This document shows positions 38,670-64,000 of a stretch of 64,000 nucleotides of DNA, piece by piece. The DNA comes from Pseudomonadota bacterium (lineage in GTDB: Bacteria; Desulfobacterota; Desulfovibrionia; Desulfovibrionales; Desulfovibrionaceae). Positions within the stretch are counted from its first letter, which is position 1. Each line of letters opens with the position of its first letter. The notes beneath the pieces were generated by a model, which had not been told where the DNA came from, ran no database searches, and worked only from the letters and a program-made list of their open reading frames with translations. Location of the stretch: the NCBI GenBank assembly GCA_018822105.1, contig JAHJLB010000023.1:62001-126000 (forward strand). Direction: 5' to 3'. Both the position numbers and the translations under genes were made by a program.

Positions 38670-39956
38670 TCAGCGACCCATCAAGAGCGCGATGAACCCC
38701 GGAAAGACGAGATCCAGGGTCATGAGCAGCGTCAGGCACAGGACGATGACCACCGTGGCCCAGGCGATGGTGTTGAAGGTGGCCTTGTTGACGTACTCGC
38801 CCATGATGCGCTTGTCGTTGATGAGGATGAGCATGAAGATGAGCACAAAGGGCAGCACCGCGCCGTTCACCACCTGGGAGACGTACATGATGGCGATGAG
38901 CGGCGCCCCGGGCAGCAGGATGACGCCTGCGGACACGGCTATGAGCAGGGTGAACAGCCAGAAGAACTGCGGGGCCTCGCGGAAGTCCTTGTCCACGCCG
39001 AGCTCCCAGCCCAGGCCCTCGCAGATGTAGTAGGCGGTGGACAGGGGCAGCACGCAGGCGGCGAAGATGGAGGCGTTGAACAGGCCGATGGCGAAGAGCG
39101 TGGTGGCGTACTTGCCCACCAGCGGGGTCAGGGCCAGGGCGGCGTCCGCGGCGGTCTCGATCCTGACGCCGGACTTGAAGATGGTGCCGGCGCAGGCCAC
39201 CACGATGAAGAAGGCCACCACAATGGCCATGATGCAGCCCACGATGACGTCCAGGCGCGAGAAGGCGTAGTTCTCCTTGGTGATGCCCTTCTCCACCACG
39301 GACGCCTGCTGGTAGAACTGCATCCAGGGCGCGATGGTGGTGCCGATGATGCCGATCATCATGGTCACTGCCGAGGGCGTGACGTGGACGTCCGGCACCA
39401 CCGAGGCCGTGAGCACCTCGCCCCAGTCCGGCCCGGACATGAAGGCGGCCACGGGATAGGCCACGTAGACCAGGCAGGCCACCAGGAAGACCTTCTCCAC
39501 GATGCGGTAGGAGCCCTTGACGATGAGCAGCCACACGGCCACCGCGCCCAGGGGCACGGACAGGTACTTGCTGACGCCGAAGAGCTCCATGCTCGCGGCG
39601 ATGCCCGCGAACTCGGACACGGTGTTGCCCAAATTGGTCAGAAGCAGGGCGATCATGACGTAGAAGGTGATCTTGACGCCAAAGGACTCGCGGATGAGGT
39701 CGGCCAGGCCCTTGCCCGTCACCGCGCCCATGCGCGCGCACATCTCCTGCACCACCACCAGCGCGATGGTGGTGGGCAGCATGATCCACAAGAGCGAGAG
39801 CCCGAACTGGGCCCCGGCCAGGGAATAGGTGGTGATGCCGCCGGCGTCGTTGTCCACGTTGGCGGTGATGATTCCCGGGCCCAGGATCGCCAGGAACATG
39901 AAGATGTTCCTGCGGTTGAGCTTGCCCAGGGGGGCGATGATGCGTGCTGCGGTCAC
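38670..39956 (-). CDS. NRAMP-like divalent metal permease
   Basis: A 428-aa inner-membrane protein with about eleven transmembrane segments and the SLC11/NRAMP fold. The TM1 metal-site motif, usually DPGN, reads DNDAGG (residues about 35-40). The TM6 MPH motif is absent; the corresponding segment reads IGTTIAPWMQ. Transition-metal selectivity of classical MntH depends on those residues, so another cation such as Mg is plausible. It follows an MgtE-like sensor gene by 21 nt in the same operon, which supports that idea. The substrate is inferred, not shown. Confidence 0.82.
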   Translation of the reverse strand: MTAARIIAPLGKLNRRNIFMFLAILGPGIITANVDNDAGGITTYSLAGAQFGLSLLWIMLPTTIALVVVQEMCARMGAVTGKGLADLIRESFGVKITFYVMIALLLTNLGNTVSEFAGIAASMELFGVSKYLSVPLGAVAVWLLIVKGSYRIVEKVFLVACLVYVAYPVAAFMSGPDWGEVLTASVVPDVHVTPSAVTMMIGIIGTTIAPWMQFYQQASVVEKGITKENYAFSRLDVIVGCIMAIVVAFFIVVACAGTIFKSGVRIETAADAALALTPLVGKYATTLFAIGLFNASIFAACVLPLSTAYYICEGLGWELGVDKDFREAPQFFWLFTLLIAVSAGVILLPGAPLIAIMYVSQVVNGAVLPFVLIFMLILINDKRIMGEYVNKATFNTIAWATVVIVLCLTLLMTLDLVFPGFIALLMGR

Positions 39957-39977: not shown

Positions 39978-41255
39978 CTAGAACTTGCGCAGGGCCTTGT
40001 ACTGCTTCCAACGCAGGGCGAAGGGCAGGAAGTGTTCCAGGATGTCGTCCGCAGAGACGATTCCGGCCATCTTGCCGTCCTCCTCCAGCACGGGCACGGC
40101 GGCCAGCTTGTACTGCACCACCAGCTCGAAGACCTCGTCCAGGGCGGAATCCACGTGCACGCTCTTGGGGTTGCGGCTCATGACCTCGGCCACGGGGGTG
40201 TTGCCCGGCGAGAGCAGCAGGCGCTTCAGGCTCAGCACGCCTTGCAGGTGCTCGTTTTCGTCCACCACGTAGACATAGTAGATGTTGTCGATCTCCGCGC
40301 CCAAAAGCCGCACCTGGCTCATGGCGTCGTCCATGATGGCGTCGGGCGAGACGAAGAGGTATTCGTTGTTCATGAGGCCGCCGGCGGAGTCGTCCTCGTG
40401 CTCCAGCAGCTCCTGGACCTTCTCGGCGTCCTCGGGGTCCATGTGCGACAAAAGCTCCAGGGCCTTGTCCTCGGGCAGCTCGGCCAGCAGGTCCGCGGCC
40501 TCGTCCGGGGGCATCTCCTCCAGCACGTCGGCCGCATGCGAGCTGTCCAGCTGGCTCAGCACCCGGCTGGAGTCCTCGGGCTCCATCTCGCCCAGGGCCT
40601 CGCCCGCGGCCTCCATGTCCAGGGAATGCAGCATCTCCGAGATGTTCTGGTGCGGCAGCTGGCTGATGATGTGCGCCAGATCGGCCGGGTGCAGGTCGGA
40701 GAGCTTGTCGCGGGTGATGGTCAGGGTCAGCCGGGAGAGGTTCGCGCCCAGGGGCTGCACCAGGAACCAGTCGATCTCCTTGCGGGCCAGGGGCCGGTGC
40801 AGCACACCGCCCAGGAAGTCCCAGGCCTTGAGGTAGCCCAGGCGGCGCAGCACGCCGCGGAAGCCCACGTCCACCGTGGCCAGGCACAGGCCGTCCAGCA
40901 CGGGGGTGAGCTTGAGGTCGTTGACCCGCACCACGCGGGCCCCGTCCACGTCCACGATCTGCTTGTCCAGGATGTCCCGGCGCATGAGCACCTCGTCACT
41001 GGGCTCAGGCAGGTCAGTGATGCCTTCAGGCTCGCCCTTGAGCGACACCACCACGGGATTGAACAGGGCGATGTCGGCCCAGGCTATGCGCCGCACCCGG
41101 CCGGCCTTGCGCACCAATAGGTGCGGCACCACGGGAAAGGGGTCGCCGGGGCCCATGGCCACGTCCCACAAAACGCCGATGTCGCGGCCGGACTGGCTGA
41201 TGACCGGACGGTCCAGCACCGCGCTGAGGAAGATGCCGCTGACAGGCTGGTTCAT
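39978..41255 (-). CDS. PRC-barrel/MgtE-N/CBS cytoplasmic sensor protein
   Basis: A 425-aa soluble protein. Two PRC-barrel-like segments (about residues 10-75 and 92-170) are followed by an MgtE intracellular N domain (about 185-300, with helical repeats such as LHPADLAHIISQLP and MPPDEAADLLAELP) and two CBS domains (about 300-425). It has the Mg-sensing half of MgtE but no channel segments. The ATG at 41255 with GGAGG 5 nt upstream overlaps the stop of a small upstream frame (ATGA). A longer start at 41450 is not supported. It probably senses Mg or nucleotides and gates the NRAMP-like permease; this is inferred from domains and context. Confidence 0.85.
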   Translation of the reverse strand: MNQPVSGIFLSAVLDRPVISQSGRDIGVLWDVAMGPGDPFPVVPHLLVRKAGRVRRIAWADIALFNPVVVSLKGEPEGITDLPEPSDEVLMRRDILDKQIVDVDGARVVRVNDLKLTPVLDGLCLATVDVGFRGVLRRLGYLKAWDFLGGVLHRPLARKEIDWFLVQPLGANLSRLTLTITRDKLSDLHPADLAHIISQLPHQNISEMLHSLDMEAAGEALGEMEPEDSSRVLSQLDSSHAADVLEEMPPDEAADLLAELPEDKALELLSHMDPEDAEKVQELLEHEDDSAGGLMNNEYLFVSPDAIMDDAMSQVRLLGAEIDNIYYVYVVDENEHLQGVLSLKRLLLSPGNTPVAEVMSRNPKSVHVDSALDEVFELVVQYKLAAVPVLEEDGKMAGIVSADDILEHFLPFALRWKQYKALRKF

Positions 41256-41422
41256 GCAGGCCTCCGGCAGGGCTTGGACCAGTGGGAAGGATGCTGCGCG
41301 CGCAGAGGGCCTCCGGCGTGCAGGCGCCAGGACCGCGGGGCTGCCGCCTTGGGGCCGCGCAGGGCGAAGGCCCCGAGGGGCTCGGATGCGGCATTGAAGA
41401 ATCTGGTGCGGGTGCGATGCAT
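41252..41422 (-). CDS. Candidate 56-codon upstream frame (uORF2)
   Basis: A small frame beginning MHRTRTRFFNAASEPLG and ending WSKPCRRPA. It is preceded by AGGAGGTG (41434-41427) 4 nt before its ATG, a near-perfect ribosome site. Its TGA overlaps the sensor gene ATG as ATGA, so ribosomes could pass directly from one to the other. It is Pro- and Arg-rich and matches no family I recognise. A hairpin just upstream (41432-41458) pairs part of its ribosome site. It may be a leader peptide that controls the sensor and permease genes rather than a functional protein. Confidence 0.4.
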   Translation of the reverse strand: MHRTRTRFFNAASEPLGAFALRGPKAAAPRSWRLHAGGPLRAQHPSHWSKPCRRPA

Positions 41423-41431
41423 CGGCCACCT

Positions 41432-41458
41432 CCTGCATGTGCGTCGCCACATTGCAGG
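41432..41458 (-). promoter_or_regulatory. Hairpin overlapping the uORF2 ribosome site
   Basis: On the minus strand CCUGCAAUGUG pairs with CACAUGCAGG (10 bp with one bulged A) around a 6-nt loop. The last three bases of the 3' arm are the first three of the AGGAGGU ribosome site of uORF2. Opening or closing this stem could control translation. Confidence 0.4.
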
Positions 41459-41509
41459 GGGCGGCGCGTCAGGGGAGGCCCAGGACGCGCGTTTTGGCGC
41501 GGGGGGGCT

Positions 41510-41605
41510 TCAGACGCGAGCAGCCGTGCGGGCGGGCGACTCGAATTCGGACAAAGGCCTGAAAACTTCAGGCGATTTCAAACATGTACTGTAGGGGTCG
41601 TCCAT
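41510..41605 (-). CDS. Candidate 31-codon leader peptide (uORF1)
   Basis: A small frame beginning MDDPYSTCLKSPEV and ending PARTAARV, with GAGGAAGAG directly before the ATG. It lies about 29 nt after the predicted transcription start of the leader. It starts with Asp-Asp-Pro, recalling the acidic/proline opening of the enterobacterial Mg leader peptide MgtL. An internal 7-bp hairpin (41557-41573) is followed by CUUUGU. No homology can be claimed. A 12-codon frame starting at 41616 overlaps it in another phase and has no ribosome site. Confidence 0.3.
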   Translation of the reverse strand: MDDPYSTCLKSPEVFRPLSEFESPARTAARV

Positions 41606-41640
41606 CTCTTCCTCATAAGACTGTTGCAGCGCCAAAGCGT

Positions 41641-41670
41641 ACCCTAGGCCCAGGCAGCGCAGGCTGTCAA
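41641..41670 (-). promoter_or_regulatory. Candidate promoter of the sensor/NRAMP-like operon
   Basis: A perfect TTGACA (41670-41665) is followed after 18 nt by TAGGGT (41646-41641) on the minus strand. Transcription from about 41634 would give a leader of roughly 380 nt before the sensor gene, holding both small upstream frames. The -10 match is only 3 of 6. Confidence 0.4.
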
Positions 41671-61920: not shown

Positions 61921-64000
61921 ATGTCCGACATCTCCCACCGCCGCCGCATCACCGTCACCGGGCAGGTGCAGGGCGTGGGCTTCCGCCCCTTCGTCTACCG
62001 CCTGGCCCAGGACATAGGCCTGGCGGGCATGGTGCGCAACGCCCCGGAGGGCGTCGTCATCGAGCTGCAAGGCAGCCCGCGCCGCCTGGACGAGTTCCTG
62101 CGCAGGCTGGAGCCCGAGCAGCCGCCGCTTTCGCGCATCATGCGCGTGAGCACCCAGGACATCCCCCCCGAGGACGGGGCCGGCGCCTTTGAAATCCACA
62201 AGAGCACCGGCGGCACGGGGCACGACGTGCTCATCAGCCCGGACATCAGCACCTGCGCGGACTGCCTGGCCGAACTCACCGACAAGAACGACCGCCGCTT
62301 CCTCTACCCGTTCACCAACTGCACCAACTGCGGCCCGCGCTTCACCATCACGCGCTCCATCCCCTACGACCGGCCCAACACCTCCATGGGCTGCTTCCCC
62401 CTGTGCGCGGACTGCGAGCGCGAGTACAACGATCCGGCCGACCGGCGCTTCCACGCCCAGCCCAACGCCTGTCCGGTCTGCGGCCCCAAGGTCTGGCTGT
62501 CCGACCGCTCCGGCTCGGTGGTGGCCCGGCGCGACGAGGCCATGCGCAAGCTGGCGGCCATCCTGATGCAGGGCGGCATCGCCGCGGTGAAGGGCCTGGG
62601 CGGCTTCCACCTGGTCTGCGACGCCACCAGCCAGGCCGCCGTGACGGATCTGCGGCGGCGCAAGAACCGGCCGCACAAGCCCCTGGCCGTCATGGTGCCG
62701 GACCTGGCCACGGCCCGGCAGCTGGCCCACATCGGCCCCGCGGAGGAGGCCTGGCTCACCGGGCATGTGCGGCCCATCGTGCTGTGCCCCAGGCGGCGCG
62801 GCGCGCCTTTGGCCTCGGCCGTGGCCCCGGACGCCGACCAGGTGGGGCTCATGCTGCCGTACACGCCCCTGCACCATGTGCTCTTCCGGCGCTTCGGGCG
62901 GCTTTTGCAGCAGGAGCGCCAGAACATGCCCGCCGCCCTGGTCATGACCTCGGGCAACGTCAGCGACGAGCCCATCTGCCTGGGCAACCGCGAGGCCCTG
63001 GGCCGCCTGGCGGAAATTGCAGACATCTTCATGTTCCACAACCGCGACATCCTCCTGCGCACCGACGACTCGGTGCTGCGCATCGCGCCCGGCAGCGGCC
63101 AGCCGCTCCTGCTGCGCCGGGCCAGGGGGTTTGCGCCCCAGCCGGTGTTCCTCCCGGAGTCCGGACCCAGCGTGCTGGGCCTGGGGCCGGAGCTCAAGTG
63201 CACCCTCACCCTGACCAAGGGCGACAAGGCCTTTGTGAGCCAGCACCTGGGCGACATGCAGAACATCGAGACCCTGGGCTTCCACCACGAGATCGTGGAG
63301 CATTTCCAGGACATCCTGCAGACCGACCCGGTGCTCGTGGTGCGCGACCAGCACCCCAACTACCTGACCACCAGCGTGGCCCAGGAGATGGCGCGCAAGA
63401 CCGGCGTCGAGGCAACCTTCCTGCAGCACCATTTCGCCCACGCCCATGCCGTGCTGGCCGAAAACGCGCACCAGGGGCCGGCCCTCTGCCTGGCCCTGGA
63501 CGGCACGGGCTTCGGCCCCAGCCAGCCCAACCTGGGCTTCAGCGCCAGCTGGAGCATCTGGGGCGGGGAATGCCTGCTGGTGGACACCAGGGACCTGCGG
63601 CACAGCCGCCTGGGGCATCTGGCCGAATTCAGCCTGCCCGGCGGGGAGGCTGCGGTGCACGAGCCCTGGCGCCTGGCCCAGTCCCTGCTCTGGGAGCTGG
63701 ACCTCGAGGAGAGCGGCCAGGACGACACCCCACCCTGGCCCTGGCTGCCCGAATTCGAGCAGGCCAGCCGCTTTCTGCCGCAGCTGCTGCGAAAGAACCT
63801 GAACTGCCCGCTGACCTCCAGCTGCGGACGGCTCTTTGACGCCGTTTCGGCCATGCTCGGCCTGTGCCTGCGCACGACCTACGAGGGCCAGGCGGCCATC
63901 ATGCTGGAGCAGGCCCAGGACCACAGCATCCCCTTTGCCGATGCCGTGGCCTACCCCTGCCCGCTGCTGAAGCGGGAGGGCAGCGCGCGCCTGGGCGGCG
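61921..64000 (+). CDS. hypF: Carbamoyltransferase HypF (N-terminal 693 codons, runs off window)
   Basis: Makes the thiocyanate/cyanide precursor on HypE for [NiFe]-hydrogenase active sites, from carbamoyl phosphate and ATP. AAGGAG is 5-6 nt before the ATG. The acylphosphatase domain (residues 8-95; GQVQGVGFRPFVYRL) comes first. Two zinc fingers follow (CADC...CTNC and CADC...CPVC), then the YrdC-like domain (AAVKGLGGFHLVCDATSQAA) and the Kae1-like domain. The frame is still open at 64000, so the C-terminus lies outside. Confidence 0.95.
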   Translation, partial: MSDISHRRRITVTGQVQGVGFRPFVYRLAQDIGLAGMVRNAPEGVVIELQGSPRRLDEFLRRLEPEQPPLSRIMRVSTQDIPPEDGAGAFEIHKSTGGTGHDVLISPDISTCADCLAELTDKNDRRFLYPFTNCTNCGPRFTITRSIPYDRPNTSMGCFPLCADCEREYNDPADRRFHAQPNACPVCGPKVWLSDRSGSVVARRDEAMRKLAAILMQGGIAAVKGLGGFHLVCDATSQAAVTDLRRRKNRPHKPLAVMVPDLATARQLAHIGPAEEAWLTGHVRPIVLCPRRRGAPLASAVAPDADQVGLMLPYTPLHHVLFRRFGRLLQQERQNMPAALVMTSGNVSDEPICLGNREALGRLAEIADIFMFHNRDILLRTDDSVLRIAPGSGQPLLLRRARGFAPQPVFLPESGPSVLGLGPELKCTLTLTKGDKAFVSQHLGDMQNIETLGFHHEIVEHFQDILQTDPVLVVRDQHPNYLTTSVAQEMARKTGVEATFLQHHFAHAHAVLAENAHQGPALCLALDGTGFGPSQPNLGFSASWSIWGGECLLVDTRDLRHSRLGHLAEFSLPGGEAAVHEPWRLAQSLLWELDLEESGQDDTPPWPWLPEFEQASRFLPQLLRKNLNCPLTSSCGRLFDAVSAMLGLCLRTTYEGQAAIMLEQAQDHSIPFADAVAYPCPLLKREGSARLGG

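Follow-up and report, generated by a model that had tools for sequence, protein, structure and literature searches.

MgtL, the leader peptide of enterobacterial mgtA, starts with an EPDP motif that causes ribosomes to drop off at low Mg2+, an effect opposed by EttA; di-acidic starts by themselves do not always destabilise ribosomes (PMC11282234). In Salmonella, the eight-codon mgtQ, located between mgtC and mgtB, aborts translation through Asp2 and Glu5 and so frees the mgtB SD (PMC8092293), and the mgtCBR leader carries two tandem small frames (uORFs), mgtM and the proline-rich mgtP (PMC3641672). The cases we found in which ribosome destabilisation serves to sense Mg2+, MgtL and MgtQ, come from enterobacteria. 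A different device is the M-box (RF00380), whose sensor is the RNA itself; according to Shin et al. (PMC4072509), M-boxes before Nramp-related genes are mostly seen in Clostridia and Deltaproteobacteria. The transporters concerned include the NRAMP-related Mg2+ transporters (NRMT), which carry the signature DxxG (helix 1) and TxxA/T (helix 6) where Mn2+/Fe2+ NRAMPs have DxxN and A/CxxM, as given in PMC8806188. We describe here a leader that precedes an NRMT operon, shares traits with each of these systems and has no description in Rfam or in our literature search, which covered few subscription journals.

The window, that is, the whole stretch of DNA analysed, comprises 64,000 nt (positions 62,001 to 126,000 of contig JAHJLB010000023.1, assembly GCA_018822105.1) and belongs to the genus Humidesulfovibrio (Desulfovibrionaceae, phylum Thermodesulfobacteriota). 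On its minus strand, tatA and its terminator-like end are followed by a TTGACA box, a weak -10, a GAGG and a first small frame, uORF1 (Table 1). From a TTGACA promoter candidate, a leader of about 380 nt and a 31-codon MDDP frame with an upstream GAGG, the original prediction had proposed an independent Mg-sensing leader. All three elements are found at the locus. The distance from the predicted start to the main ATG, that of gene 1, is 379 nt, and TTGACA is kept in 24/24 homologous leaders, most of which have a better -10 (TCTAAT/CATACA). A generic sigma-70 scan did not call the window promoter because its -10 is poor. No intrinsic terminator was found in the window leader. The leader is larger than first described: the conserved unit also holds a second conserved frame, uORF2, which the original prediction did not have, and an RNA core.

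Table 1. Positions of the leader elements and downstream genes in the window
Feature	Position	Strand	Description
Promoter	41641..41670	-	-35 TTGACA, 41670-41665; weak -10 TAGGGT, 41646-41641; predicted start near 41634
uORF1	41510..41605	-	31 codons, MDDP...AARV*; SD GAGG, 41614-41611; translation (41605-41510) MDDPYSTCLKSPEVFRPLSEFESPARTAARV*
Hairpin of the original prediction	41557..41573	-	GCCTGAA-GTT-TTCAGGC; window only
uORF1 3'-end hairpin	41517..41543	-	CGAGTCGCC/GGCTGCTCG; conserved within Humidesulfovibrio
C-rich segment with predicted anti-SD	41455..41480	-	CGCCCCCTG, 41463-41455; homologous GGCCTCCCC, 41480-41472
uORF2 SD	41429..41433	-	strong SD, GGAGG; its GAGG shows no variation among the ten leaders aligned first
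uORF2	41252..41422	-	56 codons; TGA overlaps main ATG (ATGA)
Gene 1	39978..41255	-	soluble MgtE_N + CBS protein, 425 aa, without MgtE channel domain
Gene 2	38670..39956	-	NRMT-type NRAMP; helix 1 DAGG, helix 6 TTIA

The downstream genes had been read as an MgtE-like/NRAMP-like operon related to Mg, and this holds in a more precise form. Pfam detects MgtE_N and CBS domains in gene 1 and no channel domain, so that gene 1 is not an MgtE channel; its product probably adds a second, protein-level Mg2+ feedback. The solved structure closest to gene 2 is 7qia, the Mg2+ transporter EleNRMT, with 437 bits against 118 for MntH structures. The motifs NVDNDAGG and GTTIAPW agree with the NRMT signature, and gene 2 is, judged by its sequence, a member of the NRMT branch. 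This is the branch of C. acetobutylicum NrmT and of EleNRMT, which often occur with an MgtE-like fragment and an Mg2+-responsive RNA. Unlike the locus described here, those known loci use an M-box, and the excerpted accounts of them do not mention a uORF-type leader. An MgtE-associated NrmT of A. capsulatum (Acidobacterium), which lacks an M-box, moved Mn2+ and not Mg2+, as reported by Shin et al. (PMC4072509).

We found the leader in 24 genomes from four Desulfovibrionaceae genera (Humidesulfovibrio, g36, g6 and g38). Within Humidesulfovibrio it occupies the same locus in five other species and a different locus in two more; covariance and sequence models made from these leaders gave matches in g36 and g6, and a ten-sequence model, built with the g38 sequences left out, retrieved the leader in 14/14 NRMT-bearing g38 genomes. 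Recurrence in seven other Humidesulfovibrio species and three more genera places the leader above chance. An NRMT-type operon lies downstream in all 23 cases with visible downstream sequence, in either of two gene orders, starting with the MgtE_N-CBS gene or with the NRMT gene. Among the 37 NRMT-bearing genomes of the family, 23 carry the leader and 14 do not; the sole match in a genome with no detected NRMT lies at a contig end in a 73%-complete assembly. Order- and phylum-level searches returned no convincing leader outside Desulfovibrionaceae, and the viral contigs searched had none. Weak matches of the model to other genera, with E values from about 1e-5 to 0.01, were rejected as chance, since those examined lack an M[DE][DE]P frame. 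This comparison shows a single unit conserved across four genera, consisting of promoter, acid-acid-proline uORF1, structured C-rich inter-ORF segment, uORF2 and NRMT operon.

The start of uORF1 reads M-[DE]-[DE]-P in all 24 leaders, and thus has acidic residues in the first codons, which, with or without proline, characterise the MgtL/mgtQ-type class. Codon 2 is GAC or GAA, codon 3 is GAC, GAT or GAG, and codon 4 is CCN. Parsimony on a tree made without codons 2-4 infers 12 substitutions in these codons, all at third positions, with acid, acid and proline retained; the chance of this is about (1/3)^12 = 2e-6 if positions are equally free and changes independent. Because changes are confined to third positions and residue classes are kept, uORF1 is, by this pattern, a coding frame under peptide-level selection, and the conservation of the frame and its first codons that had been suggested as a check is thereby found in four genera. 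That the frames are by-products of high GC in a conserved promoter/UTR, with no regulatory use, would agree with the many long chance open frames at this GC and with a uORF1 frame that is open far upstream; it hardly accounts for the acid-acid-proline pattern, or for a stop position and a uORF2/main overlap that are kept despite indels, and we regard it as highly improbable.

The leader resembles MgtL in having a short frame whose first residues after the start include acids and proline, with an Mg2+ uptake gene downstream. It differs in its motif, which is M[DE][DE]P and not MEPDP, in carrying a further frame, and in preceding an NRMT operon instead of a P-type ATPase gene. No homology to MgtL is seen; host clade, gene and sequence differ, which places the leader outside the MgtL family proper. 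The MDDP motif holds just two acids and one proline. The remainder of the uORF1 peptide is variable, with 20-31 codons and a sequence that differs between genera. Within Humidesulfovibrio, part of the uORF1 body is conserved at the nucleotide level even in leaders with a shifted frame (CGAGTTGCCCGCA...GGCTGCTCG); an RNA constraint therefore acts on the uORF1 3' end as well. The conserved hairpin at this end has 96.9% of cells paired, mostly invariant, and hence offers little covariation evidence. A hairpin at 41557-41573 that had been noted earlier is present inside uORF1 in the window; being absent in relatives, it was rejected as a functional part.

Two forms of uORF2 can be distinguished. 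Its C-terminal end is [ED]PP(P/S)... in 17/17 complete cases outside the window's clade (g38, g6, g36 and one Humidesulfovibrio), and the six changes inferred in the [ED]PP codons affect third positions only. This end is lost in the window's clade, where the ATGA overlap of uORF2 with gene 1 is found in 6/6 species despite uORF2 lengths of 39-77 codons. Each form implies that ribosome traffic on uORF2 is of importance. The arrangement recalls the Salmonella mgtM/mgtP leader, with two small frames per leader, one of which has consecutive prolines; however, mgtM lacks M[DE][DE]P, the Pro-codon run of mgtP senses proline, and the order and structures are unrelated.

Either or both peptides might instead act in trans on the transporter as small proteins, in the manner of MgtS or MgtR, and the 54-57 aa uORF2 of g38, well conserved along its whole length, would suit such a role. 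We consider this very unlikely, since the uORF1 body is not conserved, neither peptide is a clear membrane helix as judged by eye, and the body of uORF2 has diverged in the window's clade, with only its frame preserved. In g38 leaders (L184-L197), the uORF2 start codon lies inside a small hairpin of its own (GATGAA...TTCATC); the conserved Phe-Ile codons may therefore reflect an RNA constraint rather than a peptide constraint.

The segment between the two frames contains stretches predicted to pair with the uORF2 SD. These anti-SD stretches (CGCCTCC/CGCCCC) lie 35-60 nt 3' of the uORF1 stop, and in one g38 subgroup right at this stop, under a terminating ribosome. Occlusion of the uORF2 SD is predicted in most leaders; it is near-complete in most g38 leaders and exceeds that in dinucleotide shuffles of the upstream segment, while in the window's genus it is not above such shuffles. 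A likeness to mgtQ may be seen here, as destabilisation on mgtQ alters the RNA structure over a downstream SD, and both frames combine a single proline with early acids. Unlike the intergenic mgtQ, uORF1 is longer and lies at the 5' end; here it is the SD of uORF2 that is occluded. In Humidesulfovibrio, predicted alternative helices pair the uORF1 end with the segment around the anti-SD. Nevertheless, and despite these alternative pairings, constrained folding does not support a simple mechanism by which the uORF2 SD is masked or exposed when a ribosome sits on the stop codon of uORF1: with a ribosome modelled at the stop, the uORF2 SD was not opened and its access was unchanged on average. 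Equilibrium folding of the leader gave no clean switch. From the uORF1 stop to the uORF2 stop, the window shows a C-over-G bias of 0.14, within the top 0.9% of stretches of the 64-kb window, and this C-rich, G-poor region fits a Rho site. A Rho step is part of the MgtL system; in the window leader Rho is a candidate only.

A structured RNA could also bind Mg2+ (or Mn2+) directly, as a riboswitch not yet recognised for which the small frames merely serve as expression platform. The RNA core in Humidesulfovibrio is long, GC-rich and conserved (mean column identity 82%), the uORF2 SD is buried in predicted structure, and the M-box fills this role in related operons. We nevertheless judge a direct riboswitch unlikely: a search of the leader returned no Rfam family, covariation is weak, which is explained by most pairs never varying, and the core diverges strongly between genera whereas the M[DE][DE]P codons persist with third-position-only changes.

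The nature of the signal is indicated by related operons. Among 40 loci scanned, mostly in Geobacterales, 28 have an M-box directly upstream of a related MgtE_N-CBS/NRMT operon. The MgtE_N-CBS genes of Geobacterales are mostly 45-52% identical to gene 1, and most related MgtE_N-CBS genes are followed by an NRMT 70-74% identical to that of the window. The leader thus resembles the M-box in its position before such operons, in Geobacterales and others, and differs in that its proposed sensor is the nascent peptide. RF00380 had no match in the window leader or in any Desulfovibrionaceae locus scanned, and the M-box, like other Rfam families, was rejected as the identity of the leader. No convincing acidic/proline uORF was seen upstream of the relatives of gene 1 in Geobacter and Eremiobacterota; an M-box is present there instead. 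By analogy with the M-box on related operons, Mg2+ is most likely the signal for the window leader too. In several Geobacterales (L054, L056, L057, L059, L063, L067 and L085), a tmRNA gene lies upstream of the M-box-controlled operon, at distances that range from a few hundred bases up to about 1,600.

The uORFs might alternatively sense amino-acid supply or the state of elongation (Pro/Asp tRNA charging, EF-P, or EttA/ATP), much as Salmonella mgtP senses proline (PMC3641672). The acidic-proline motif that opens uORF1 and the [ED]PP stretch at the end of uORF2 would be suitable targets, and EttA acts on the EPDP motif of MgtL (PMC11282234). We see this as distinctly unlikely, as Mg2+ is indicated both by the genes downstream and by the M-box that relatives carry at the equivalent position, and the single proline of the common uORF1 motif is too little for classical charging attenuation. 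A direct RNA sensor, or sensing of the Pro/EF-P state, is as consistent with the data as ribosome drop-off.

With moderate confidence, we favour an Mg2+ attenuator that acts in cis through the translation of two leader peptides, placed before an NRMT Mg2+-uptake operon and probably serving as a low-magnesium switch. The comparative evidence supports the original reading of an independent Mg-sensing leader, which most likely works like MgtL and MgtQ with no homology to them. When Mg2+ is ample, ribosomes would get past M[DE][DE]P and complete uORF1, and the RNA behind them would fold into a form that holds the operon off. When Mg2+ is low, intrinsic destabilisation would make ribosomes drop off at the first acidic-proline codons, as on MgtL and MgtQ; the uORF1 3' end would then be free, the RNA would refold, and uORF2 and/or the operon would be expressed. 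uORF2 may act as a second gate or relay, which in most species would combine an occluded SD with a slow [ED]PP(P/S) end and in the window's clade would hand ribosomes straight to gene 1 via the ATGA overlap. Candidates for the output step are initiation at uORF2, Rho-dependent termination, or both. We infer the drop-off, the direction of the response and the output step by analogy with the known systems.

A more specific proposal, which we hold tentatively and place slightly short of an even chance, is that the leader is an independently evolved tandem-leader-peptide Mg2+ sensor that stands in place of an M-box, with uORF1 acting by abortion at M[DE][DE]P and uORF2 relaying the signal through the [ED]PP slow step or start/stop coupling. 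One operon would then have two interchangeable controllers, a nascent-peptide sensor and an RNA aptamer. If true, a sequence-unrelated acidic-proline leader in another phylum would mean that the same property of the ribosome has been recruited more than once. The 24 leaders provide a comparative set with which to study the early codons that cause ribosome drop-off, and the leader offers a direct test of NRMT transporter regulation.

Some loci bear on the mobility of the leader. At L241 (G011:C22:44500-53000), a cassette of leader, NRMT and MgtE_N-CBS gene lies within what is left of a resident gene1-NRMT operon at ruvB/tatA, and fragments of that operon are found on both sides of the cassette on the opposite strand; this implies that the leader can move together with the transporter. 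In two species (L145 and L146; G001:C51 and G009:C3), the sequence upstream of a second NRMT copy looks identical over 760 nt, which suggests that it was transferred recently; decay has left only promoter remnants of the leader there. At L144/L127 (G061:C43), a perfect 13-bp inverted repeat (GTGACGTTTTGGT ... ACCAAAACGTCAC) flanks the promoter, uORF1 and uORF2, and possibly represents an operator pair or the ends of a mobile element. Finally, leader-less Humidesulfovibrio (L010, L011 and L036-L041) have a strong terminator-like hairpin that separates tatA from gene 1 and lies about 60 nt before the start of the latter (for example, CCGGAGCCCGC-TTTTTT-GCGGGCTGCCGG-TTTTTT). As this hairpin leaves little room for a promoter, the operon in these species may need regulated read-through.
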